Source of the DNA: an uncultured bacterium
Lineage (GTDB): Bacteria; Cyanobacteriota; Vampirovibrionia; Gastranaerophilales; Gastranaerophilaceae
DNA length: 55,842 bases
Assembly: GCA_902791985.1 (NCBI GenBank)
Contig: CADAYD010000020.1
Coordinates: 1 to 55,842 of the forward strand
Direction of reading: 5' to 3'
Shown: one piece after another, positions 1,325-15,706 of the stretch
Numbering within the stretch: the first letter of the stretch is position 1
Layout: each line of letters begins with the position of its first letter
Notes under the pieces: generated by a model
Told to the model about the DNA's origin: nothing
Database searches by the model: none
What the model saw: the letters and a program-made list of their open reading frames with translations, nothing else
Translations under genes and position numbers: made by a program

Positions 1325-1927
1325 ATGCAAAAAATATGGATTTTATTTTTAATATTTTTATTTATAACTTGTCCAGTTTTTGGTTGTAATTTGACAAAAA
1401 ACCAGCCAATTACTCATCCTGACGGAACTATTGAATACAATTTTTCTAAACAATCTCAAACCAAAGCAAGTAAAATATTATATAAATTTGTCTTGAAAGA
1501 ATTAAATAAAACTCCAAGAGAAGCACAAGATTTTGCAAATATAACCCACAAAACAGTAAGTGCTTTTGAAACCGATTTAAACGGTGACGGTAAAAAAGAA
1601 ATTATTGGTGTTGTTTTTTCAACATTATATTGGGGAACAGCGGGAATTTCTTTATTTATTCTTGAAGAAAAAGATAATAATTATCAAAATATTGCAAAGT
1701 ATATGATTAACATAGAAACAAATATGAAATTTTATGTTTTGCCGTATAAAACAAATGATTATAAAGATATAAAATATCATGGTTCTATTGCTTTTGATTT
1801 TAAATCAATGCAAGCAAAATTTAATGGTAAATATTATTATAATTATGAACAAGAAAAAAAATTCTTAGAATACTTAAAAAATTTTTCCGGATATGATGTA
1901 TCTGAAATAACAGGTATAAAAGAATAA
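1325..1927 (+). CDS. Putative lipoprotein, phage-region accessory protein
   Basis: The product is 200 residues. It starts with a hydrophobic signal (IWILFLIFLFITCPVFGC) ending in VFGC, an acceptable though imperfect lipobox with Cys21 as the predicted lipidated residue. A segment near residue 85, DLNGDGKKEIIG, looks like a single calcium-binding or FG-GAP-type loop. The last residues, FSGYDVSEITGIK, match a stretch inside the transglycosylase encoded next (FEGYDVSNVTGIK), which suggests shared ancestry or a shared docking segment. There is no good ribosome site before the ATG and only 17 bases after the previous gene, so translational coupling is possible. Function unknown. An envelope role linked to the neighbouring lysin, such as protection or exclusion, is only a guess. 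Confidence 0.5.
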   Translation: MQKIWILFLIFLFITCPVFGCNLTKNQPITHPDGTIEYNFSKQSQTKASKILYKFVLKELNKTPREAQDFANITHKTVSAFETDLNGDGKKEIIGVVFSTLYWGTAGISLFILEEKDNNYQNIAKYMINIETNMKFYVLPYKTNDYKDIKYHGSIAFDFKSMQAKFNGKYYYNYEQEKKFLEYLKNFSGYDVSEITGIKE

Positions 1928-2010: not shown

Positions 2011-3114
2011 ATGACAAAAACATTGAATGATTTTTATAATGATTTAGGTGCTAGAGAATCAGGAGGCAATTATTCTTCTGTAAATAAATATGGTTATGTT
2101 GGCAAATATCAAATGGGTGAAGCTGCAATGATAGATGCTGGCTATTATAAAAAGCCTTCTGGGAAATACAATAATGATTGGTCTGGTCAATTTACAGGCA
2201 AAGATGGTGTATATAGTGTTCAAGATTTTCTAAAAAACAAACAGGCACAAGAAAATGCACAAAAAGCATTCAAGCAGGCTCAATGGAATCAATTAAAAGC
2301 TATTGGAGCTGATAAATATATTGGTAAAGAAATTAATGGAGTCAAAATAACGCAATCGGGCTTATTAGCTGCAGCTCACCTAAAAGGTCCTGGGGCAGTA
2401 AAAGAATATTTACAAAGTGATGGCAAAAATATTCCAAAGGATGCTTTTGGTACAAGTGTTGAAAGTTATATGAAAAAATTTGAAGGATATGATGTCTCAA
2501 ATGTTACAGGAATAAAAGATTCAAAAACTAATGATAATACCTCTAAAAGTGAACCAATTGAAAAAGGACCTTTAAATTATAATCAGAATGTTCCGTTTGA
2601 ATTAAGCATTCAATATAACGATTACCAACAAAACAACCTTCCTGATTTAAATGATTTAATGATAAATCCTATAAATCAACAACCTGATAATCCTTGGGAT
2701 ATGATCCCAATGGCAATACCTGAAAGTTTAAGGCAACCTTCAGGTCTTCCAACAGGTCAAGCTGCAAATTTTGATATCAATCAACTTGCAAATATTTTGG
2801 GCATTCAATTACCTGATGTACAATCTACAAATCAACCTAAACAAGATTCAGGTTTATTTGGATATACAAACCCATTAACTGGCAGCAATCATATCTACAC
2901 ACGTGAAGAAGTCGGACAAATGTCATCAGATGAATTTGCCAAACACGAAAAAGAGATTGACGCACAAACTCGTGTATTTAACGGAACTATGCCAACCAAT
3001 GGTGATTTGCAACGAGAAGCCATGACAGGTGGCGGTGTAGTTTATGTAAACTCCTACACCCGTTCTGATGGTACAGAAGTAAAAGGTTATTACCGCAGCA
3101 GGCCTAGTATTTAG
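2011..3114 (+). CDS. Lytic transglycosylase-like (lysozyme-fold) protein with phage-type tail
   Basis: The product is 367 residues. Residues 1-150 look like a lysozyme-fold transglycosylase: GARESGGNYSS carries the expected catalytic Glu16, then GYVGKYQMGEAAM and GLLAAAHLKGPGAV follow at the usual spacing. Such enzymes cut the glycan strands of peptidoglycan. Residues 155-280 are Asn/Gln/Pro-rich and probably disordered. The C-terminus has TREEVGQMSSDEFAKHE, shared with the protein at 8580-9179, and VYVNSYTRSDGTEVKGYY, shared with the start of the protein at 13312. This links it to the virion cluster and suggests a virion-associated or ejected wall-degrading protein. An AAAGGA site precedes the ATG. 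A weak inverted repeat (1957-1978) lies upstream. Confidence 0.7.
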   Translation: MTKTLNDFYNDLGARESGGNYSSVNKYGYVGKYQMGEAAMIDAGYYKKPSGKYNNDWSGQFTGKDGVYSVQDFLKNKQAQENAQKAFKQAQWNQLKAIGADKYIGKEINGVKITQSGLLAAAHLKGPGAVKEYLQSDGKNIPKDAFGTSVESYMKKFEGYDVSNVTGIKDSKTNDNTSKSEPIEKGPLNYNQNVPFELSIQYNDYQQNNLPDLNDLMINPINQQPDNPWDMIPMAIPESLRQPSGLPTGQAANFDINQLANILGIQLPDVQSTNQPKQDSGLFGYTNPLTGSNHIYTREEVGQMSSDEFAKHEKEIDAQTRVFNGTMPTNGDLQREAMTGGGVVYVNSYTRSDGTEVKGYYRSRPSI

Positions 3115-4694: not shown

Positions 4695-4905
4695 CTACAA
4701 GCTTTCTGTTCAAAATTCTCAAACTGACTGTTATTTTAGGATAAAAATATTATTTAATGTGCTTTTTAACCATAAATTACTACTAAATAGTAGTGACGGA
4801 AAAGAGGAATTTTCATTTTCCCATAAATGTTTATACTTTTATATGTAATCTTTAAGAACTAAATTTTAATATCAACCCTAACATTCCAATACTCTAATTA
4901 TTAGT

Positions 4906-4943
4906 AAGGGGATTATTTTCCCTGAAAATCCCCTTTATTTTTT
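4906..4943 (+). terminator. Hairpin with T-run upstream of the LuxR-type gene
   Basis: AAGGGGATT (4906-4914) pairs with AATCCCCTT (4927-4935), followed by a run of seven Ts. No plus-strand gene ends just before it, so it may act as an attenuator in the leader of the gene at 5018 or as an insulating terminator. The rest of 4575-5017 shows only the small palindrome at 4677. Confidence 0.6.
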
Positions 4944-5017
4944 TAGAGTGGAAATATTATTAAGCGATTTAGATAATGCTTAATGTAATATTAAAGAGTA
5001 GTTCAAAAAGGAAGTTT

Positions 5018-5236
5018 ATGAAATTATCACAGCGAGAACACGATGTGCTATTGTGCATCGCGGATGGTTTAGTCGAAAAGGAAATAGCAAAAAAACTCAA
5101 AATAGGCAAAGGCACTGTTCATTCTTATATCACATCAATGATGAATAAAATGAGTGCTCTAACAAGAGCACATGCAGTATCAATTTACTACAGAGAATAT
5201 CCCAGATGGGATATTAAAGGAAAGTTAAAAATTTGA
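5018..5236 (+). CDS. Small LuxR-type helix-turn-helix protein
   Basis: The product is 72 residues and consists almost only of a LuxR/GerE-type DNA-binding domain: LSQREHDVLLCIADGL, then EIAKKLKIGKGTVHSYI with the recognition helix, then a dimerisation helix. There is no receiver or ligand-binding domain. The ATG at 5018 is preferred over the one at 4976 because AAGGAAG (5008-5014) lies just upstream and the extra 14 residues look unstructured. Its stop shares a base with the ATG of the amidase gene (TGATG), so the two are translationally coupled. It probably regulates the phage-like late genes. Small LuxR-type or sigma-like HTH proteins also occur as phage late regulators or terminase-like proteins, so the role is inferred. 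Confidence 0.65.
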   Translation: MKLSQREHDVLLCIADGLVEKEIAKKLKIGKGTVHSYITSMMNKMSALTRAHAVSIYYREYPRWDIKGKLKI

Positions 5237-5733
5237 TGAAACGAATTATAATCCACTGGAGTGCAGGTACATATTATCCGACTCTGCACGAAAAACAATG
5301 TTATCACTATCTTGTTGATAAAAACGGTAAAATTTATGACGGGCTTTATAAGCCGGAGGATAATATTGATTGTAAAGACGGAATATATGCTGCACATACA
5401 GGAGGTGGAAATACCTGTTCTATAGGGGTTGCAATGTGCGCAATGGCAGGGTTTAAAAATCCGTATCAAATCGGGGATTACCCTATAACCCCGATACAAT
5501 TTGAGGCTTGTATGAAGTTGTGTGCCCTGCTTTGTCTTAAATATTCGATAGAAATTGGTCCGAATCATGTTATGACTCATTATGAATTTGGACAAAAAAA
5601 TCCCAAAACATCCAGTTTTGGCAAAATTGATATAGTGTATCTTCCGCCATATCCTTGGGTACCTAGGGGAGAGGTTGGGAGTTTTATTCGTTCAAAAATC
5701 CGCTGGTATAAGAATAAATATTTTGGAGGTTAA
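5236..5733 (+). CDS. N-acetylmuramoyl-L-alanine amidase (amidase_2 family) endolysin
   Basis: The product is 165 residues from the ATG at 5236; a TTG one codon earlier is also open. The start KRIIIHWSAGTYYP places a metal-binding His at residue 7. AAHTGGGNTCSIGVAM (residues 52-67) matches the family core, MTHYEFG supplies His115, and GKID with Asp132 is the likely third ligand. This is the zinc amidase type that includes T7 lysozyme, which cleaves the bond between MurNAc and the stem peptide. It is one compact domain without a signal peptide, as in phage endolysins that need a holin. It is coupled to the LuxR-type gene before it, and its last codons contain the GGAGG ribosome site of the next gene. 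Confidence 0.88.
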   Translation: MKRIIIHWSAGTYYPTLHEKQCYHYLVDKNGKIYDGLYKPEDNIDCKDGIYAAHTGGGNTCSIGVAMCAMAGFKNPYQIGDYPITPIQFEACMKLCALLCLKYSIEIGPNHVMTHYEFGQKNPKTSSFGKIDIVYLPPYPWVPRGEVGSFIRSKIRWYKNKYFGG

Positions 5734-5735
5734 AT

Positions 5736-7253
5736 ATGGATATTAATTATTTTGATTTGTCGGGAGGTATAAACCAAAATTCTACAAAAACTGAACTGGG
5801 AATTCACAAAGGTCGATTATCTTGGGCCGATTCAAAAAATATTGAAATATATTCAGGAAAAGGAATCATTAAACAAAAAGGTAACACATTGTATTTTGAG
5901 CTGCCGGTTTCAGAAGCAATTACAGGCATGTGTGAAATGGAATCTGCAGGAGTTTATAAACTTGTAATCACTACTGTAAGCGGGAAAATCTATATTTATA
6001 ATGATAATTCTCAACAGTTGACGTTATTAAATAAAACTTTGTCCGGTGCAGATGTAAAGTTCGTGTGTTTTCTAAACGGTATGCTTGTTGCTACCGAATC
6101 CGATGCGATGTTTTATATTAAAAATGATGCGGAATACACAATAGAAAACTGTAATTTAAAGAACCTTAATAATGAAACAATTTATCCTGATTGTATTGCG
6201 GTATATAAAGGTAGAGTTTGGGCGGCAGATAATTCTACTATTTATTATTCTGCGCTTGGTAAATATGATGATTTTACAACAAGCAATGATGCGGGGTACA
6301 TAAATGATTTTCATACTGATACATCTTATATAACAGGTTTGCATAATTACAAAGATTGTTTGTCTATATATAAAAAAGACAAAGTATATTTGCTGCAGGG
6401 CTCAAGTCCGGATGATTTTAGGATTATACCGTTTGCCGATAAAGGTACTGTTTGCCAAAAATCGATTCTAAATGTTGATAACAAACAATATTTCGTCAGC
6501 AACGGAATATATGCGCTAGAACAAGTTGGCGAATTAAATCAAATACGTTTGGGGTCATCTATTTCAGAAAATATAACAGCAGAGTTTGACAATTTTGATA
6601 AAGCAAGATTTAGTGATACTATGGCTGTTCATTATCAAGATAGACATCAGATGTGGTTTTTATTTCCGTATAGAAACTATGAATATTATAAAACAATATG
6701 GATAAATGATTATGTGAACAGAGTTTGGTACAAAAGAGTGTTGCCTCAAAATATTACATATATGTGCATTTTTCATAATAACATTCTATCTTCAGACTCC
6801 TCGGGGAAAGTATACATAGAAGATTTAGGTACGACTTTTGATGGTCAAAGTATCGATTTTATGTGGAAATCCCCCTTTCTTTCTTTAAGCAATATTCATC
6901 ACAGGAAATTGATAGACGAATTTTATTTTGTGCTTGATGATGCACAGGATAATAAATTTGATTTTTATGTATATAAAGATTATGACGGTAATTGTCCTGA
7001 TGATAGAGAGCTTATTTATTCAAGGAATTTTACTCAATTAATATGGGCAAAAGATGACGAGAATTTAGATATTTCAAAATGGTGTATCGATACAAATGAT
7101 GCCCCTATTTGGACAATAAATGCTGACATTTTGGAAAAAGCCGAGATTTGCGGAAGTTGTTTCAGTGTTCAACTATGTGTTGAAGGGAATGCTGTTGATG
7201 ATAATTGCGCAATTATCGGTTTGCAATTCAGAGAAATATATAACGACGATTAA
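5736..7253 (+). CDS. Podovirus-type tail nozzle / DNA stabilisation protein
   Basis: The product is 505 residues. The opening INYFDLSGGINQNSTKTELG, repeated short beta-strand units, and the central IYKKDKVYLLQGSSPDDF are typical of phage proteins in the P22 gp10/T7 gp12 class. Those proteins form the beta-propeller tail tube or plug below the portal and keep packaged DNA in place. The last third, from about residue 370, is less conserved and may form the distal tip. GGAGG (5725-5729) lies inside the end of the amidase gene, six bases before the ATG. Assignment rests on motif pattern and on the neighbouring capsid, adaptor and portal genes, with no tape-measure gene, which fits a short tail. 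Confidence 0.65.
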   Translation: MDINYFDLSGGINQNSTKTELGIHKGRLSWADSKNIEIYSGKGIIKQKGNTLYFELPVSEAITGMCEMESAGVYKLVITTVSGKIYIYNDNSQQLTLLNKTLSGADVKFVCFLNGMLVATESDAMFYIKNDAEYTIENCNLKNLNNETIYPDCIAVYKGRVWAADNSTIYYSALGKYDDFTTSNDAGYINDFHTDTSYITGLHNYKDCLSIYKKDKVYLLQGSSPDDFRIIPFADKGTVCQKSILNVDNKQYFVSNGIYALEQVGELNQIRLGSSISENITAEFDNFDKARFSDTMAVHYQDRHQMWFLFPYRNYEYYKTIWINDYVNRVWYKRVLPQNITYMCIFHNNILSSDSSGKVYIEDLGTTFDGQSIDFMWKSPFLSLSNIHHRKLIDEFYFVLDDAQDNKFDFYVYKDYDGNCPDDRELIYSRNFTQLIWAKDDENLDISKWCIDTNDAPIWTINADILEKAEICGSCFSVQLCVEGNAVDDNCAIIGLQFREIYNDD

Positions 7254-7313
7254 AACATCACCATTCACTCATACATATACAGTTACACACTAATTAATGA
7301 AAGGACAAGAAAA

Positions 7314-8255
7314 ATGACAGATTTTTCAACAACTTATTCTGCTTTCATTCCGGAAGTATGGAGCCAAAAATTAAACACAATGCTTGAAAAAAAATGTGTT
7401 ATGATGCAGTGCGTAAACAAAAATTGGGAAGGAGAAATTTCTAAACAGGGTGACAAAGTAAAAATTATCACTCCGGCAAGTGTTTCCGTTTCTACTTTAA
7501 CCACTGGCAGTATTTCTTACTCTGCGCTTGAACCTAGTGCAAAAGAATTGGAAATTGATCAAAAGAAATTTTTTGCATTCAAGATTGATGATATTGCCAA
7601 AGCACAAGCAAATGTTGATATTATGGAAGCGCATTTGAATAATGCAAGAAAAGCAATCGAAGTAGTACAAGATTCATATTTATTGTCTTTACATACAGAT
7701 GTTCCGTCTGCTAATATTGTAGGCTCGGCAGAATCACCTGTTGCATTAAGTAAATCAACTATTTATGAAAAATTTGTACAATTAGCACTGGCATTAAAAA
7801 ATTCGGATGCTGTTTATGCTGGAGTGCGTCCTTGGGTGGTAATTAACCCGACTATTGAATCATATTTACTTCAAAGCTCTGAATTTATTTCTGCATATAA
7901 TGTTGCAGATACAACATTGAGAGAAGGTTCAATTGGCAGAATTGCAGGTATGGATGTGCTTGTCAGCACTAATTTGACCGCTGTAGACGGTAAATACTAC
8001 GTCTTAGCCGGCACAAACGATGCAATAACTTTCGCATCTCAACTTGCTAAAATTGAAAGTTTAAGAGATAAAGATTCATTCTCAGATTTGGTAAGAGGCT
8101 TATATTTATACGGTGCTAAAACAGTACAGCCAAATGCATTAGCAAAAATGATTGTTTCCGCATCAACATCAGATGATACAACAGAAGCTCCATCTGAAGC
8201 TGCATCTGATACTCCTAGCGAAACCCCTAGCGAAACCCCGTCAACAACTCCTTAG
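7314..8255 (+). CDS. Major capsid protein (HK97-fold, podovirus type)
   Basis: The product is 313 residues. The start TTYSAFIPEVWSQKLNTMLE is a typical phage coat opening. It is followed by GDKVKI, the spine-like helix LNNARKAIEVVQDSYLLSL, and a late GMDVLVSTNL block, as in P22-like coat proteins with the HK97 fold. The last 30 residues are an unusual Thr/Ser/Glu/Pro-rich tail with repeated SETP units, probably exposed on the particle or used in assembly. An AAAGGA site precedes the ATG. The gene is closed by a strong hairpin (8265-8303), as expected for a highly expressed capsid gene. The fold is inferred from sequence pattern. Confidence 0.75.
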   Translation: MTDFSTTYSAFIPEVWSQKLNTMLEKKCVMMQCVNKNWEGEISKQGDKVKIITPASVSVSTLTTGSISYSALEPSAKELEIDQKKFFAFKIDDIAKAQANVDIMEAHLNNARKAIEVVQDSYLLSLHTDVPSANIVGSAESPVALSKSTIYEKFVQLALALKNSDAVYAGVRPWVVINPTIESYLLQSSEFISAYNVADTTLREGSIGRIAGMDVLVSTNLTAVDGKYYVLAGTNDAITFASQLAKIESLRDKDSFSDLVRGLYLYGAKTVQPNALAKMIVSASTSDDTTEAPSEAASDTPSETPSETPSTTP

Positions 8256-8264
8256 TATTAAATA

Positions 8265-8303
8265 AAAATGTACTCTTTTTCTACCTGAAAAAGAGTACAT
8301 TTT
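8265..8303 (+). terminator. Strong hairpin after the capsid gene
   Basis: A perfect 17-bp stem (8265-8281 with 8287-8303) and 5-base loop ends in Ts. It lies ten bases after the capsid stop and would end or reduce transcription into the following genes, favouring capsid expression. Confidence 0.8.
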
Positions 8304-8330
8304 CCCTTAAAAAATCATAGGAGAAAATTT

Positions 8331-8576
8331 ATGTTTAAAACTATCAAAAATATAATTAAAAATTTGGCACAAAATGCAGTCCTTATTGCAGAAAAAGAAT
8401 TAGGTTCAGGCAATGGTCAAGCAAAAAAGAAAATGGCTGTAGAATACGTCGTAAATAATTTGCCATTTGCAGAGCCTGTTAAGCAAATTATTTCGTTTTT
8501 ACTTTCCAAAATGATAGATGAATTAATAGAATCTTCTGTAATGTGGCTGCATAACCAAAATAAACAAGGAGAATAA
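8331..8576 (+). CDS. LLH-holin-like small phage protein
   Basis: The product is 81 residues. AVLIAEKELGSGNGQAKKKMAV, then a hydrophobic helix and KMIDELIESSVMWLHN, resemble the soluble C-terminal part of LLH-type phage holins. The usual N-terminal transmembrane helix is absent: residues 1-20 are amphipathic and lysine-rich. The only hydrophobic stretch (PVKQIISFLLSKMI) is short. It may therefore be a truncated holin, a pinholin-like peptide or an unrelated virion protein. AGGAGA precedes the ATG, and its own stop is followed within four bases by the next ATG, so the two genes are coupled. Confidence 0.5.
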   Translation: MFKTIKNIIKNLAQNAVLIAEKELGSGNGQAKKKMAVEYVVNNLPFAEPVKQIISFLLSKMIDELIESSVMWLHNQNKQGE

Positions 8577-8579
8577 CTA

Positions 8580-9179
8580 ATGCAAAATCAACAATTTAAT
8601 GGTATTTCATCATCTGCCGTGACTCCGCAGATAAATTACCGAAATATTTTAGAGCAGCTTGTTTTGACGCTTGCGGCAAATGCACAACAAGAGCAACTAG
8701 CAAAACAACTAGGTAATAATGAGCAAATTCAGCAACTTATAAGTGCCTTTAACGAAACGAATAAAGTAAATCAAAATAATGTTGCTCCTCAAGTGCAAGC
8801 GCCTGTTCAAAGTCCATTAGAACTTTTTAACCAGGAACATCCGGGATTTTTTGAGAAAAGCTCAAGAGAAGATGTTTTGAAATATATTAGGAATTTTGAC
8901 ATGGACAAAGATGAAATTTCCAAAATAGCTAAAATGATTGAAACACTTGAGAATTCGGCCGTTGACAGCTATTTGAAACAATCCGTGCACGATAGGACAT
9001 TAAATGACGAAAACTCAGCTGCAAAAAGCAAATTGACATCATATGCTCAAAACGCTTCACTTGACAGCAATAATAACAAGGTCTTTACTCGTGAGGAAAT
9101 CGGCAAAATGAGTGGTGATGAGTTTGTCAAGAATGAAAAACTCATTATGGAGCAGGTAAGACAAGGTCTTATCAAGTAG
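8580..9179 (+). CDS. Scaffold-like phage protein (hypothetical)
   Basis: The product is 199 residues, rich in Gln, Asn, Lys and Glu and mostly helical, with a flexible middle (VAPQVQAPVQSPLE). There is no signal peptide or enzyme motif. Composition and position between capsid and adaptor genes suggest a scaffold or internal virion protein. The C-terminus, FTREEIGKMSGDEFVKNEK, matches a stretch in the transglycosylase at 2011-3114, so the two may share a binding surface. AAGGAG precedes the ATG and a terminator-like hairpin follows. No firm homology is claimed. Confidence 0.5.
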   Translation: MQNQQFNGISSSAVTPQINYRNILEQLVLTLAANAQQEQLAKQLGNNEQIQQLISAFNETNKVNQNNVAPQVQAPVQSPLELFNQEHPGFFEKSSREDVLKYIRNFDMDKDEISKIAKMIETLENSAVDSYLKQSVHDRTLNDENSAAKSKLTSYAQNASLDSNNNKVFTREEIGKMSGDEFVKNEKLIMEQVRQGLIK

Positions 9180-9205
9180 TTTTTGACAAAATACGGAAAA
9201 GTTTG

Positions 9206-9229
9206 AGGCAAGTCTATAAATCCTTGCCT
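9206..9229 (+). terminator. Hairpin after the scaffold-like gene
   Basis: AGGCAAG (9206-9212) pairs with CTTGCCT (9223-9229). Flanking GAAAAG and CTTTTC can extend the stem with a small internal loop, ending in Ts just before the next ribosome site. Confidence 0.5.
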
Positions 9230-9260
9230 TGAGCTTTTCTTCAAAGCAAAGGAGTAAATA

Positions 9261-9899
9261 ATGAATTATTTGGATATAATTAATAAATGCCTGCTGGAGT
9301 TGAACTACAGGCAGGTGAGCAGTTTTGCCGAGCTGGTAAAAAATGACCACAAAAGAATTAAGTCTATTATAAATATTATTAATCAAGAAATTTGTGCAGC
9401 CAGTAATTGGAATTTTCTGCTTAGAAAAACCACATTTACTATTCCTGCCAATACAACTGAGGTTAGTAAAACAATAAACGGAAGAATTTTGTATCTTTTG
9501 GTTGACGGTAAAAAATATCAATATGTTGATGATATAGAGCCGTTTTTAGTCGATGAAGCAAAAGACGGAACCTACACAGAATGTGCGGACAAATTTTTAT
9601 TTAAGCCCGCACAAAGTGCACGAAGCGCTCAAATAGTTTATTATACAAAAAATTGTGTAACTGATTCATTGGGTGGTGAAAAAATGGAAATGACAGAAGC
9701 TACGGATTGTTCTGTTATACCGTCACCGTTTGATTTACAGCTTTTAGTATACGGAACATGCTTGCGCTTAAAGGCTAATCCTTCTTATATAAGGTTTAGC
9801 TACTGGATGAGCATGTACAAAGAAGCGCTTGCAAATCTTAAATTTACATCTTCGATTAATTCTGAAGATGCTCCAGTAGTGCGTTTATTTAGGCAGTAA
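9261..9899 (+). CDS. Head-tail adaptor / tail tube A-type protein
   Basis: The product is 212 residues. The first helices (YLDIINKCLLELNYRQV, then INIINQEICAASNWNFLLRK) and a following beta-rich middle match phage adaptor proteins of the P22 gp4/T7 gp11 class. Those proteins form the ring between portal and tail. The C-terminal helix set (FDLQLLVYGTCLRL, then WMSMYKEAL) fits as well. AAAGGAG precedes the ATG. With the portal and the nozzle-like gene it supplies most of a short tail. The class is inferred by pattern. Confidence 0.6.
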   Translation: MNYLDIINKCLLELNYRQVSSFAELVKNDHKRIKSIINIINQEICAASNWNFLLRKTTFTIPANTTEVSKTINGRILYLLVDGKKYQYVDDIEPFLVDEAKDGTYTECADKFLFKPAQSARSAQIVYYTKNCVTDSLGGEKMEMTEATDCSVIPSPFDLQLLVYGTCLRLKANPSYIRFSYWMSMYKEALANLKFTSSINSEDAPVVRLFRQ

Positions 9900-10029
9900 A
9901 AAGACAAAAAAAACAGGAAGTCGTTTTCATTCCCCCCTGTTAAGATTTACACTAGCCGAAATATAAATAGCATGTTCATTATACAAGTTTTTTATAAAAA
10001 AGACAAATTTTAATAAGAAATGTAACAAG

Positions 10030-10470
10030 ATGAAACAATTAACAACTAAACAAAAACTCTTTGTATCTGAATATATTAAATCTTTAGATCCGGTAAATGC
10101 AATAAAATCCGCCGGATATAAAACTTCCAGACCGGAAGTAGCTGCGCATAGGCTGCTTGAAACTCCGTATATTATCAATGAAATAAAGAATCAATTAAAA
10201 AATCAAATAGAAATTCTTAATGTTTCAAAGGGATATGTCATCTGTCAATTATTGCGGATAGCAGAATTTTCACTTGAGCAGGAGGATGTTCTTGATAAGG
10301 ATGGGAATTATACCGGCAAAAAGAAGTTAAGAGATGCTTCAGCAGGTTTAAAAGCGCTCGAAAATCTCTGTAAATATCTTGGGTTTTCAGTGGTCAAAGA
10401 AGAGAAAAATAATGATTATAAAGAGGCCAAAATTATTACCATATCCAATTTGGATGATGAAAAGATATAG
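10030..10470 (+). CDS. Terminase small subunit
   Basis: The product is 146 residues. LTTKQKLFVSEYIKSLDPVNAIKSAGYK, read in sections, is the standard DNA-binding start of terminase_2-family small subunits, followed by VAAHRLLETPYI and then GYVICQLLRIAE and SAGLKALENLCKYLG. The protein binds the packaging site and hands DNA to the large subunit. The ribosome site is weak. No large-subunit gene follows, although it usually lies directly downstream; instead there is a 150-base gap and an unrecognised gene. Confidence 0.85.
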   Translation: MKQLTTKQKLFVSEYIKSLDPVNAIKSAGYKTSRPEVAAHRLLETPYIINEIKNQLKNQIEILNVSKGYVICQLLRIAEFSLEQEDVLDKDGNYTGKKKLRDASAGLKALENLCKYLGFSVVKEEKNNDYKEAKIITISNLDDEKI

Positions 10471-10621
10471 AAAAGTTAATAAGTCAGTTAAGTCCGATAA
10501 GTTCATTACAAGGATTAATTATTTCAATGAAGTACTATCAATAATATTAAATCCTATACGAACTTATTTACTTATAGACTTTTCAGCCTTATTCGACTTT
10601 ATTTAACGAAAGGATTTTCCA

Positions 10622-10969
10622 ATGAAACAAAATAACGATATAGAACAAATTTTATTGAATGATGAAAAGTACGAAAAATTCATCAAAAGAAAACAAGAAA
10701 AAGAATTTAAAAAAATTCTGGAAATTGCGACAAAAAATGAATCGACAATTATTACGGATTTAAAAAAAATGTCCAAAGATAAACTTTTTTCTAAAAATGC
10801 AACATATTTTGTTATAAACAAAAATAGCAAAACAAGTTCGTATATAAATGGTATTCAAGCAGAATCATTTTTGGTTTCGCCGGCGGAACGGGAAAAATTC
10901 CTCTCTGGCAAAACGGATTCGTTTATTTATCAGGATAACTATATAAAATTTTACAAATACAAAGGCTAA
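10622..10969 (+). CDS. Hypothetical phage-region protein
   Basis: The product is 115 residues and highly charged. Residues 1-65 are Lys/Glu-rich and helical, and the rest looks like a small beta-strand domain (ATYFVINKNSKTSSYINGI). AAAGGA precedes the ATG. The next gene starts nine bases after the stop, so it probably belongs to the same transcript as the GNAT and portal genes. I do not recognise a family. Confidence 0.5.
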   Translation: MKQNNDIEQILLNDEKYEKFIKRKQEKEFKKILEIATKNESTIITDLKKMSKDKLFSKNATYFVINKNSKTSSYINGIQAESFLVSPAEREKFLSGKTDSFIYQDNYIKFYKYKG

Positions 10970-10978
10970 TTTTAGTTT

Positions 10979-11575
10979 ATGTGTAAATTTAAACAAATTT
11001 ATCTGCGAAGCAAGCCGGTTGTTTTATCAATAACAAATGACCGGATTGCTTCACCCTATCAGACTTGCAATAACTGGAATTGTCCTAATTTACGCTATAT
11101 ACCTGATATCCTTAGCTGTTACGGTAAATACGCAAAATATTTGCAAGATGATTACGCAGGGGAATACGGCTTCTTAAATATGTTTGCATCGTACCCGAAT
11201 TTTTGGGTCATAACAGATATGTCTGACGAGTTTATGGGGTTTGTGTTTCTTGATAATTTCATCGGTAACGGCAGTACAAATTTCAGCGCTGAATTAACCG
11301 TATGCTTTGATAAAAAAGCGTGGGGGAGCTATAGCGCATATTGTGCAAAAATATTTTTGAAACAGTGTTTCGACCGATTTGGGTTTTATAAAATAAAAGT
11401 TCTTGTTTTCCCTGATAATTACCGTACAAAAACACTTATGAAAAAAGCCGGATTTGAATACGAAACGACTTTACCTTGCGAAACCTTGCGTAACGGACAA
11501 TTACAGGATATTGAGGTTTATTCGATTAAAAGAAAGTATTACTACAAAGATGAGGTGAACTATGTTAAACACTAA
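10979..11575 (+). CDS. GNAT-family acetyltransferase, phage type
   Basis: The product is 198 residues. The pattern from FMGFVFLDNFIGNG through ELTVCFDKKAWGSYSAYCA to KIKVLVFPDNYRTKTLMKKAGF is a GNAT fold with the usual strand 4, strand 5 and the helix carrying the KKAGF end motif. GNAT enzymes transfer acetyl groups from acetyl-CoA to amines or proteins. The target is unknown. The gene overlaps the portal gene by 14 bases, so the two are co-translated. Such genes are known next to portal genes in some podophages and may modify virion or host proteins. Confidence 0.7.
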   Translation: MCKFKQIYLRSKPVVLSITNDRIASPYQTCNNWNCPNLRYIPDILSCYGKYAKYLQDDYAGEYGFLNMFASYPNFWVITDMSDEFMGFVFLDNFIGNGSTNFSAELTVCFDKKAWGSYSAYCAKIFLKQCFDRFGFYKIKVLVFPDNYRTKTLMKKAGFEYETTLPCETLRNGQLQDIEVYSIKRKYYYKDEVNYVKH

Positions 11576-13235
11576 TGATACTACATTAACTGCTCAAGAT
11601 TATTACAATGAGCAAAATATTTTGAAAAATATTGTTTCAAAATATGATTACTACAATGATGCAAGAAATTCCCAGCGTGTAGATAATAGGCTGATTTCTT
11701 ACGCTATATATAATGCTGATATTCCGCAAATTAATGACTGGAATTGCAGAATACAACTTCCTGAGATTTATGAATTATCTCAAACTCTAAAATCTCATAT
11801 TGTCCAGAATCTTTATTCTCACCCTGATGGGATGTTTGATGTATCCGGCAGTGATTTGAAATCTCAAAAATATGCAAATCGCCAAAAAGCGATGCTCGTA
11901 AATACTTTTGAAGATATGAAAATTTCCGATGAAATGGAAAAAATAATAGATTCTGTCGTAGAAACCGGTGAGGTCACTCTATTTGTCGGCTGGGAAACAA
12001 AAACAAGAAAAGTTCGCAGAGCACTTTCTTTGCAGGAACAACTGGAATTAAATACCGATAAATCTTTTGCAGTTGAAGATAAGGTTATTTATGACAACGC
12101 AAAAGTCAAGTTTATTCATTACGAAGATTTTGTTTTTGACAGAACCGGTGTAAATAATTGGGATTCATGTCCTAAGATTTATCGAACTTATCAGACGCTT
12201 GATGATATTAAATCAAACAAATCAAATAACATGCTAAATACAGAAAAACTGGAAATATTGAAAGGAGTGGTGGCAAATAAAAAAGGACAAGCAGATTCAA
12301 AATATTCAATACCTAATGTAGAAGTATTGGAATATTGGGGGGATATTGAATTGCCGTCAGGAGAGATACTTAAAAACCAACTAATTTGTGTTGCGGGCAG
12401 AAGTGTGATTATCAGATTTGAGGATAATCCGTTTGTAATTAATCCGTTTATACATGCAAACATTATAGAGAACCCGTCAACAGGACGCGGGATTTCGCCA
12501 TTGAGGGTTGCTTTAATTTTAAACAACATATCTTCAACAATTCTCAATAAACAGCTCGATGCGCTTGCCTTGATGATGAATCCGCCTTATCTTGCCCCGA
12601 AAGGATGCTTTATGGGCACTCAGGAAGTTAAACCAGGCAAGATTATTGAATATGATTCAACACTTATGACTACGAGCCCGATACCGTTGTCGTTCGATAA
12701 AGCAATGACCGGCTGGGATTTCTTGAATTACTTTAAAAATACAACAGAAAGTGCTACGGGAATTTTCAAAAATATGGCCGGAAATATTCAAAGTGCTCAA
12801 CGCAGTGCAACAGAAATTAATTATTCTGTTAACGGTCAGGAAGCGCGGCTCAATATGATTTTAGAGTCCATAAATCGTAAGGTTATCGTTCCTATGGTAG
12901 AAAAGACGGCGCAATTGATTTCTTATTTCAAAATCGGTAAAGAAAGCATTATGGTGAACGACCATGGTAAAACAGAATTTGTTGATATAGATGACGATAT
13001 AAGAAATTCAAATTATGTTTACCGTTATGGTGACAGGAAGGCATCATTTGAGCGCAAATCGAAGTTCAAAGAAATGTTTGATGTCTTAACTAATTTTGTA
13101 CAAGTCAGCGAAGTCGCCCAGCGCATAAATTGGATTGAATGTTTCAAGTTTGCACTGGAGCAATACGGAGTTGAGAACTCTAATAATTTCTTAAAGGATG
13201 AGCCTGCTTCAGACCAAGTATCAAATCTATTATAA
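11562..13235 (+). CDS. Portal / head-tail connector protein
   Basis: The product is 557 residues, the usual size for podovirus portals. Features include an N-terminal helical part with a short basic/acidic wing, a stem region with FKNMAGNIQSAQRSATEIN, and a long C-terminal helix (RRSATE-like heptads, QEARLNMILESINRKVIVP). This pattern is typical of T7/P22-type connectors, dodecamers at one capsid vertex through which DNA enters and leaves. GAGGTG precedes the ATG inside the end of the GNAT gene. A large terminase is expected beside it but none is present. Confidence 0.75.
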   Translation: MLNTNDTTLTAQDYYNEQNILKNIVSKYDYYNDARNSQRVDNRLISYAIYNADIPQINDWNCRIQLPEIYELSQTLKSHIVQNLYSHPDGMFDVSGSDLKSQKYANRQKAMLVNTFEDMKISDEMEKIIDSVVETGEVTLFVGWETKTRKVRRALSLQEQLELNTDKSFAVEDKVIYDNAKVKFIHYEDFVFDRTGVNNWDSCPKIYRTYQTLDDIKSNKSNNMLNTEKLEILKGVVANKKGQADSKYSIPNVEVLEYWGDIELPSGEILKNQLICVAGRSVIIRFEDNPFVINPFIHANIIENPSTGRGISPLRVALILNNISSTILNKQLDALALMMNPPYLAPKGCFMGTQEVKPGKIIEYDSTLMTTSPIPLSFDKAMTGWDFLNYFKNTTESATGIFKNMAGNIQSAQRSATEINYSVNGQEARLNMILESINRKVIVPMVEKTAQLISYFKIGKESIMVNDHGKTEFVDIDDDIRNSNYVYRYGDRKASFERKSKFKEMFDVLTNFVQVSEVAQRINWIECFKFALEQYGVENSNNFLKDEPASDQVSNLL

Positions 13236-13311: not shown

Positions 13312-13665
13312 ATGCAAAAAACAATACATGTCAACGCATATAAAAAGCGAGACGGAACACAGGTAAAAGAACATGACAGAATAATAGATGTAGTATTAAA
13401 TCCAAAAGGTTGTTACCCTCAAGAACCGGAGCTCCCCAGAGTTGACGTACCGGATGTAATAATGAATATGGCTCCTGTATTGGAGGGCGGTGTTTCTGTG
13501 GATGTTTACCCCACAGGTGCCGGTGGTAGTGAAGGTGGTGGCTTGGGAGATATCTTGTCAGGAGCAGGAGGAGTAGTTTCTTCTGTTATTTCACTATTAC
13601 CAACGGCATTTCCACAATGCCGTAAAATGTCTTGCAAACGCAAAGACTCAGAGCGAGTACACTAA
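13312..13665 (+). CDS. Conserved N-terminal part of a phage-region effector-like protein (frame broken)
   Basis: This open frame codes for 117 residues. It begins with IHVNAYKKRDGTQVKEHDR, similar to the C-terminus of the transglycosylase at 2011. A Gly/Ser-rich hydrophobic segment follows (GGGLGDILSGAGGVVSSVIS), then LLPTAFPQCRKM. If one T near 13630 is skipped, the frame continues as LANAKTQSEYTKIYNPLTQ and on into the frame of 13718-14542, giving one protein of about 409 residues. The last residues as translated here (SCKRKDSERVH) are therefore probably a frameshift artefact. AAAGGA precedes the ATG. The same segment recurs at 15389-15706. It is probably the carrier domain of the variable domain behind it. 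Confidence 0.6.
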   Translation: MQKTIHVNAYKKRDGTQVKEHDRIIDVVLNPKGCYPQEPELPRVDVPDVIMNMAPVLEGGVSVDVYPTGAGGSEGGGLGDILSGAGGVVSSVISLLPTAFPQCRKMSCKRKDSERVH

Positions 13666-13781
13666 AATATATAATCCGCTAACCCAAATCCACCGGCAAT
13701 ATTTAAAAAGCGGGGATTTGTTGAATAAAATAAAACAGTATTCGGCTAATAATGATTACCGCTCTATTGCCAATGAATTGG
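13462..13781 (+). repeat. Direct repeat, copy 1 (about 320 bp)
   Basis: It matches 15389-15686 almost base for base. Differences include a 27-base segment (13611-13637) absent from copy 2 and one C missing in copy 2 near the TTTACC. The repeats enclose the variable domain and the membrane protein gene. Confidence 0.9.
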
Positions 13782-14542
13782 GTAATTTTGTGAGTAGTAA
13801 TAATCAAAATCAGATTATATCAGATATATTACAACCTGATGTTAGATTGCAAAATAATATAGATAATGCAAAAGCACTCATTAATAATTATAATCTGGAT
13901 GATAAATTTAAATATGCATTGATTAACAATACAAGTGGTATAAGCCGCAATGCAGATTTTACTGATTACGGTAATGGAAATATAAAAATAAATAATTTAT
14001 TAAATAAAAATAGACCAAATGCAAAAGAAATGGCAAATATATTTTTGGCAAAACCACAAAATATCCCATTGAGTAAAGAATACAGTTATATACCTAAATG
14101 GAATGCAAATATTATCAATATTAAATACAATTTGACGGGTAATAAGGTTATTTCTCAGGATTGGGAAGGTATTGTATTTAATCAAGATAGTTCGTTGTCT
14201 AAAAATATTTCTAATTCTATTGAAATGCAAAATGAAATAAGAAATCAGTTTAATATTATGAGAACAGATACTTTTAATGACAAATTAGAAGTTGATTTTT
14301 CACAGGATTCAAATTTGCATTTATCCATAGGTCATGCAACTATTCTTGAACCATATATTGACTCACAAGGTTATTTTCATGGAATACTATTTGATAAATA
14401 TGATTTTGATTGGTTTGAATTTTATAAAAGTCTCAATTATTATAATATAATTGCTTATTTTGCAAATGATTATTTTAGGATTATTCAGCTATTTAAAGGG
14501 CATAATTATTACATTCTTGCACCAATTATTTTTAAGTGGTAA
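13718..14542 (+). CDS. Variable C-terminal, toxin-like domain (continues the frame-broken protein)
   Basis: This frame gives 274 residues from a TTG at 13718, but it is open further upstream and reads EYTKIYNPLTQIHRQYLKSG, matching copy 2 of the repeat. The first 20 residues belong to the repeated carrier; everything after IANELG is unique. The unique part is Asn-rich. It ends in a compact block with GHATILEPYIDSQGYFHG, then DKYDFDWFEF and a final YYILAPIIFKW. The DxYD signature and placement before a membrane protein recall C-terminal domains of polymorphic toxins. Colicin M has DxYD followed by His-Arg, which is not present here. I therefore call it toxin-like only from architecture. Catalytic nature unknown. 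Confidence 0.5.
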   Translation: MLNKIKQYSANNDYRSIANELGNFVSSNNQNQIISDILQPDVRLQNNIDNAKALINNYNLDDKFKYALINNTSGISRNADFTDYGNGNIKINNLLNKNRPNAKEMANIFLAKPQNIPLSKEYSYIPKWNANIINIKYNLTGNKVISQDWEGIVFNQDSSLSKNISNSIEMQNEIRNQFNIMRTDTFNDKLEVDFSQDSNLHLSIGHATILEPYIDSQGYFHGILFDKYDFDWFEFYKSLNYYNIIAYFANDYFRIIQLFKGHNYYILAPIIFKW

Positions 14543-15357: not shown

Positions 15358-15388
15358 GTGAGAAACATCACATCTTTTTATAACTGTT

Positions 15389-15706
15389 ATGAATATGGAT
15401 TCAGGTCCTGTATTGGATGGCGGTGTTTCTGTGGATGTTTACCCACAGGTGCCGGTGGTAGTGAAGGTGGTGGCTTGGGAGATATCTTGTCAGGAGCAGG
15501 AGGAGTAGTTTCTTCTGTTATTTCACTATTACCAACGGCAAAACGCAAAGACTCAGAGCGAGTACACTAAAATATATAATCCGCTAACCCAAATGCACCG
15601 GCAATATTTAAAAAGCGGGGACTTGTTGAATAAAATAAAACAGTATTCGGCTAATAATGATTACCGCTCCATTGCTAATGAGCTTGGAAGGTCTGCTTTA
15701 GTCTGA
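15389..15706 (+). pseudogene. Decayed second copy of the carrier segment with its own short tail
   Basis: The sequence repeats 13462-13781 and then ends in a different short tail (ANELGRSALV and stop, TGA at 15704-15706). It lacks the N-terminal start region, has lost one C in the TTTACC region, and has a 27-base deletion relative to copy 1. The Gly-rich block and the KTQSEYTKIYNP block are again in different frames, so it cannot make the full protein. It looks like the old, displaced C-terminus left behind when a new C-terminal module was inserted. Confidence 0.75.

Follow-up and report, generated by a model that had tools for sequence, protein, structure and literature searches.

The stretch of DNA analyzed here (hereafter, the window) is the whole of contig CADAYD010000020.1 (C20; 55,842 bases) of assembly GCA_902791985.1, the 1.9 Mb genome of an uncultured member of the Gastranaerophilaceae, and its left end is the end of the contig. 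Its plus strand carries a compact block of genes for virion and lysis proteins, which is preceded by a leader and laid out as follows (aa, amino acids; HTH, helix-turn-helix):

4905-4963, plus strand: leader, with a terminator-like hairpin and T-run (~4905-4948) followed by a conserved box, GGAAATATTATTAA (4950-4963)
4976-5236, plus strand: stand-alone LuxR-type HTH protein, 86 aa, the first gene of the block (Pfam GerE, 3.7e-15; position kept family-wide)
5233-5733, plus strand: N-acetylmuramoyl-L-alanine amidase, for lysis (Pfam Amidase_2, 1.4e-14; phrog_5867 endolysin, 6e-32)
5736-7253, plus strand: tail nozzle of the P22 gp10/T7 gp12 class (phrog_3287, 5e-20; predicted structure)
7314-8255, plus strand: major capsid protein (MCP; phrog_267, 1.3e-53; PDB 8e16 capsid, 2e-43)
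8331-8576, plus strand: LLH-type holin (phrog_6918, 9e-9; Pfam Phage_holin_6_1, 1.1e-4)
8580-9179, plus strand: scaffolding protein, of which the C-terminal ~36 aa form a module reused on predicted effectors (module common to the scaffolds of relatives)
9261-9899, plus strand: head-tail adaptor of the T7 gp11/P22 gp4 class (predicted structure)
10030-10470, plus strand: small terminase (TerS; Pfam Terminase_2, 1.3e-15)
10622-10969, plus strand: conserved 115-aa protein with no assigned role (always between terS and GNAT/portal; alignable family-wide)
10979-11575, plus strand: GNAT-family acetyltransferase (Pfam Acetyltransf_3, 1.2e-6)
11562-13235, plus strand: portal (phrog_332, 3.7e-28; profile match to the 9k09 portal, 3.9e-64)

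The ten genes named in a preliminary description of this DNA are all where it had placed them, with intact frames and on the plus strand; the gene for the LuxR-type HTH protein, which accounts for the start of the block at 4976 and is likely its regulator, had been left unnamed. The scaffold-like gene owes its name to relatives, and the other named genes have profile support. The PDB entry matched by the portal profile, 9k09, is the portal-tail complex of cyanophage A4, and the adaptor of the same complex (9k09_d, 3e-9) was the best Foldseek match of the predicted adaptor structure (pLDDT 90.4). For the predicted nozzle structure (pLDDT 79.5), the best Foldseek matches were phage nozzles (TM-score up to 0.70), including P22 gp10, T7 gp12, and the nozzles of cyanophages Pam1 and Pan3; PDB sequences searched with a profile of the aligned nozzles yielded a chance match only. 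Because the portal profile and the modeled adaptor and nozzle match parts of short-tailed phages, the block is, as judged from profile and predicted folds, a short-tailed virion set. As had been pointed out, its gene order is no rotation of the canonical one, represented by terL-portal-scaffold-MCP-adaptor-nozzle in cyanophage A-4L, and integrase, repressor, and replication genes are absent from the conserved unit, which is flanked directly by host genes.

Conservation of gene order and chromosomal site

In its full form, the block consists of 12 genes spanning ~9.5 kb and has one order family-wide: putative regulator, amidase, nozzle, capsid, holin, scaffold, adaptor, terS, the unassigned gene, GNAT, portal, and the large terminase (TerL). 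The comparison of gene order in related genomes that the preliminary description had proposed covered 80 named loci, and the same twelve-gene order was found in them wherever the contig was long enough, with cassettes encoding predicted effectors occasionally inserted. The hosts of these relatives are Candidatus Gastranaerophilales (Melainabacteria) from the rumen and gut. Of the 45 other genomes of the genus, 44 have the block as a single copy, with a portal at 71-93% identity, and portals at 53-68% identity occur in many of the family's remaining genera. In the genus, the block follows dxr and a sensor kinase gene and precedes CorC, and in other genera it lies between genes for a ZIP transporter and a radical-SAM protein on the left and one for an MGLAASQ protein on the right; in one genome of the genus, G007, the dxr-kinase site is without the block. 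Matches above 70% identity in IMG/VR were limited to the chromosomal block itself, filed as virus (L283 and L287).

Some loci depart from this pattern. In order-level genomes (L069-L073 and L080) and in viral contig L284, TerL, portal, MCP, amidase, holin, and GNAT genes are arranged in other orders, and these looser sets may represent phages or further, possibly older, domesticated clusters. Contigs C41 and C51 of genome G002 (contamination 8%) encode another, divergent portal (38%) together with two more TerLs (57%), which are either a true related prophage or foreign contigs. Four loci carrying the block (L117, L143, L176, and L179) are labeled Muribaculaceae, Fusobacterium, Brachyspira, and Heliobacteriaceae, and likely come from mislabeled assemblies.

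Separation of the large terminase from the block

The large terminase had been reported as missing, which holds for the window and fails for the genome: the proposed genome-wide search, guided by a weak family match, led to an intact TerL of 429 aa on contig C14, directly after alaS. TerL is encoded in 44 of the 45 other genomes of the genus, in most of them directly 3' of the portal gene as the last gene of the block. In nine species of the clade to which the window belongs, TerL and the block lie apart. The window's genome still has the small membrane protein and the MGLAASQ protein encoded behind TerL, as at the ancestral site. Because these right-hand neighbors have been retained, we infer that a rearrangement in this clade broke the block between portal and TerL and that TerL stayed with the right flank. 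Our initial view that TerL had moved to alaS was revised accordingly, since what was rearranged away is the left flank together with the other block genes. The layout named in advance as refuting, with terL and an integrase just left of position 1, would fall beyond the contig end, and terL was located elsewhere, in a position that the rearrangement accounts for. The Walker A, acidic Walker B, and nuclease motifs (GGYGSGKT, VEIEEM, CDFNVDP, NGDASGDN, and HPFDAASYL) are invariant or nearly so in the TerL of 32 genomes, and both halves of the split block appear to have stayed under selection. A single packaged piece of DNA holding all the genes is unlikely in this clade, where they occupy two contigs.

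Tree comparisons and selective constraint

The tree of nine concatenated block genes from 32 genomes has 11 of 29 splits in common with the alaS tree, compared with a mean of 0.19 and a maximum of 2 after shuffling. In a set of 18 genomes, the block and alaS trees agree on 8 of 15 splits, as do a host marker made of dxr and the adjacent kinase gene and alaS, and agreement between the block and this linked host marker rises to 13 of 15 splits. Ratios of nonsynonymous to synonymous substitutions (dN/dS; NG86) range from 0.04 to 0.21 over the twelve genes, with 0.043 for TerL and 0.047 for the host gene alaS, values that are rough because dS is high for some pairs. For the capsid and portal, the two genes for which this comparison had been suggested in advance, the ratios of 0.062 and 0.049, respectively, denote purifying selection.

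A probable domesticated particle of the gene transfer agent kind

Gene transfer agents (GTAs) are defined by six features, namely, proteins derived from caudoviricetes; encapsidation of mostly random host DNA; full endogenization, often in several loci; an own genome that is not, or cannot be, fully packaged; mostly vertical inheritance with host co-diversification; and delivery of the encapsidated DNA to other cells (Kogay et al. 2022, PMC9662315). Three of the six are seen here: caudoviricete-derived proteins (capsid, portal, adaptor, nozzle, TerS, TerL, holin, and amidase, by profile and fold), full endogenization (one chromosomal site in the family and two loci in the window's clade), and vertical inheritance with host co-diversification, albeit with some conflicting splits. 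We read the block as an undescribed, podovirus-derived viriform, and, because it is endogenized, vertically inherited, constrained, equipped with its own packaging motor, and devoid of replication and integration genes, we consider it quite likely that it is an endogenized, GTA-like viriform of Candidatus Gastranaerophilales that descends from a short-tailed phage. Such a domesticated particle was among the options raised by the preliminary description, and it is the one favored by the vertical inheritance, fixed order, single neighborhood, purifying selection, and lack of integrase and replication genes. The genus probably keeps these virus-particle genes to make DNA-packaging particles. Under this model, some signal would cause the LuxR-type regulator to turn the block on, capsid and scaffold would assemble into a procapsid, TerS and TerL would pump DNA in through the portal, adaptor and nozzle would close the head, and holin and amidase would lyse a few cells, releasing particles that carry host DNA to relatives.

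Scaffold-type modules on predicted effectors

A module formed by the ~36 C-terminal residues of the scaffold-like protein (FTREEIGKMSGDEFVKNEKLIMEQ...) is shared by many other proteins (hereafter, tagged proteins), in which it is usually followed by a second module, YTRSDGTxVKGYYRSR. The scaffold-type module can be assigned to scaffolds because a recognizable version of it, AFSQSQINTMGADEYRANADAIAKAYASGRV, closes the head scaffolding protein annotated in A-4L; in class-level relatives, the scaffold encoded before the capsid gene has the same C-terminal module. The other domains of the tagged proteins are unrelated, enzymatic or toxin-like ones and include lysozyme-like, GH108, class 3 lipase, DUF6973, PBECR1 nuclease, and Mu_F domains. 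Among the tagged proteins scanned, L147 alone has Mu_F, and the constant part is the scaffold module. The window contains the following predicted effector genes and putative immunity gene:

1325-1927, plus strand: secreted protein or lipoprotein, partner of the lysozyme-like effector and putative immunity gene
2011-3114, plus strand: predicted effector with a lysozyme/transglycosylase-like domain (phrog_27932, 4.6e-21, residues 7-159), a scaffold-type module, and a Y-RSDGTxVKGYYRSR module
13312-14542, plus strand: remnant of a second effector gene, in two open reading frames (117 and 274 aa) that correspond to a single 469-aa frame in relative L098

The protein encoded at 1325-1927 matched no Pfam family, and its relatives adjoin lysozyme-like genes in L085, L086, and L089. 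Other neighbors of tagged genes are also immunity-like: LprI lysozyme-inhibitor genes adjoin two GH108 effectors, and recurring small membrane or secreted proteins accompany the DUF6973 and lipase proteins. A repeated fragment of the L098-type 469-aa effector gene, 82% identical over ~50 aa, lies at 15358-15570. In genome G052 (L067 and L081), the particle genes are scattered over two contigs, and 15 tag-profile matches and repeated effector modules were recorded.

Particle-bearing genomes of the family have 0-7 tagged genes other than the scaffold (median 4, on up to four contigs) and those without the block have 0-1; the possession of two or more is enriched in the former (Fisher p = 6e-4). 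In these counts, matches were merged by hand, and the scaffold itself was excluded at the family level only. At the order and class levels, the association between tag and portal is partly trivial because the scaffold itself carries the module. The enrichment suggests protein cargo. Engineered capsids, such as that of P22, take up cargo fused to the C-terminal part of the scaffold, and because of this precedent, the plainest reading is that tagged proteins would be loaded into the procapsid. With lower confidence than for DNA packaging, the particle might then also deliver lytic enzymes or toxins. The fuller version of this idea, a combined gene-transfer and killing particle in which one domesticated short-tailed capsid would carry both DNA, through its own terminase, and a varying set of antibacterial effectors encoded at dispersed sites with immunity partners, for which the capsid-binding module of the scaffold would act as loading tag, is offered tentatively, at somewhat short of an even chance.

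Elements upstream of the block

The layout of hairpin, T-run, and box precedes the regulator gene across the genus, and a TAATAT-like sequence lies 3' of the box. In those genomes of the genus that were searched, the exact GGAAATATTATTAA box occurs at the operon; other genera carry a variant box, GGAAATATTATGAAT. The leader may be controlled by antitermination, reportedly a means by which the Caulobacter GTA is controlled. The idea that GGAAATATTATTAA co-regulates effectors and block was considered and abandoned, as the other matches to the box lie off the effector genes and one block-less genome has equally many. In 55 loci (e.g., L088 and L096), the regulator gene is directly preceded by a conserved zinc-ribbon-like gene (F0) for a protein of ~120 aa (MGYIHCCGGL...CPVCGH); a search for it in the window's genome found none.

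Contrary evidence and alternative explanations

Several observations weigh against a GTA-like viriform. Purifying selection acts on active phages too, and six well-supported splits of the block tree conflict with the alaS tree, which indicates that some recombination or transfer of the block occurs. G007 and five other family members are without the block, which is therefore dispensable. The block yielded no gene for a tail fiber or receptor-binding protein, the GGAAATATTATTAA box was not found at effector genes in the genus genomes searched, and particle-bearing genomes G006 and G058 have no tagged effector besides the scaffold.

Four alternatives were considered. The first, which we hold to be rather unlikely, is a headed antibacterial weapon, that is, a particle that mainly delivers tagged enzymes and toxins to competitors, with DNA packaging serving assembly or pressure instead of gene transfer. 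The presence of the scaffold module on GH108, lysozyme-like, lipase, DUF6973, PBECR1, and Mu_F proteins, the LprI genes and other immunity-like neighbors, and the enrichment of tagged genes in particle-bearing genomes would all fit such a weapon, but two of these genomes lack tagged effectors, no promoter box is common to effectors and block, packaging of the tagged proteins is itself conjectural, and the effectors could instead aid DNA entry, like the transglycosylases of phage virions.

An active temperate phage, or repeated insertion at a hot spot, that seems vertical because each phage is confined to one host species would be compatible with the partial conflict between the block and alaS trees and with the differently arranged virion genes of order-level relatives L072, L073, and L080 and of G002, possibly phages. 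The block, however, is short, has host genes as its immediate neighbors, carries no gene for replication or integration, and is single-copy and near-universal in the genus, making this explanation improbable.

A prophage that is defective or in decay, its frames intact by chance, would account for virion genes without integrase, replication, and repressor genes, for a TerL apart from the rest, and for the broken gene downstream of the portal (13312-14542), but the selection and distribution data led us to reject this very improbable option: twelve intact genes are kept under constraint in dozens of species, in one order and at one site, with a host-like tree, and decay would not leave TerL as constrained as alaS. 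The earlier argument from the intact frames against simple decay is in agreement with these data. Least probable of all is a satellite of the phage-inducible chromosomal island (PICI) type that borrows the packaging motor of a helper phage, an option prompted by the presence of TerS without TerL in the window and rejected on account of the cognate TerL, which is the adjacent last gene of the block in most relatives and intact in the window's genome, as well as of the vertical inheritance at one site and the lack of integrase and satellite replication genes.

Comparison with known systems

If a GTA-like viriform is indeed encoded here, it would represent an independent origin of a short-tailed GTA, in a nonphotosynthetic sister group of cyanobacteria, and a route of gene flow in an uncultured lineage common in the rumen and gut. 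Our literature search found no relevant paper on GTAs in Gastranaerophilales or Melainabacteria. The clade with the separated TerL amounts to a naturally occurring experiment on whether the particle works when its genes are unlinked. Should the tagged proteins prove to be cargo, their repertoire would be nature's counterpart of engineered scaffold-fusion packaging, and the tag a new kind of toxin trafficking signal to look for in other phages and GTAs.

Among isolated phages, the nearest portal relatives (~20% identity) are the Saffermanviridae cyanophages (A-4L and its relatives Pf-WMP3 and PP), which have the same types of virion genes and the same C-terminal scaffold module. They are, however, phages with tail fibers and the canonical gene order, whereas the block is permuted and lacks a fiber gene. 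Capsid (43%) and portal (20%) relatives were also observed close together, at 212663-216271, in Microcystis phage MaAM05 (MW495066.1, 274 kb).

The MuF polymorphic toxins of temperate phages likewise consist of polymorphic toxin domains fused to a virion-linked domain, with proposed delivery by the particle (PMC5576092). In the tagged proteins, in contrast, the presumed trafficking part is the C-terminal module of the scaffold rather than MuF, and the tagged genes are scattered over the host chromosome, from where they would supply a domesticated particle.

RcGTA (Rhodogtaviriformidae) resembles the block in consisting of endogenized genes for virion and lysis proteins, in some cases at several loci, that are vertically inherited under purifying selection without replication genes. 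RcGTA is long-tailed, alphaproteobacterial, and derived from another phage ancestor (PMC9662315), whereas the block is short-tailed, resides in Cyanobacteriota-related gut hosts, and has an operon-borne LuxR-HTH protein and tagged effectors.

Few GTAs have been described outside Alphaproteobacteria, and the one short-tailed case is FpGTA of Faecalibacterium, described in 2026 as the first podovirus-like GTA (PMC12946183). Its host is a Firmicute, particles and packaged DNA are shown for it, and tagged effectors are not among the features reported in the section consulted. Likened by description rather than by sequence homology, FpGTA is the nearest known case in kind: the same account portrays a podovirus-like block of ~10 kb with TerS, TerL, portal, scaffold, and MCP genes, hosted by a gut anaerobe and accompanied in some strains by a second locus.

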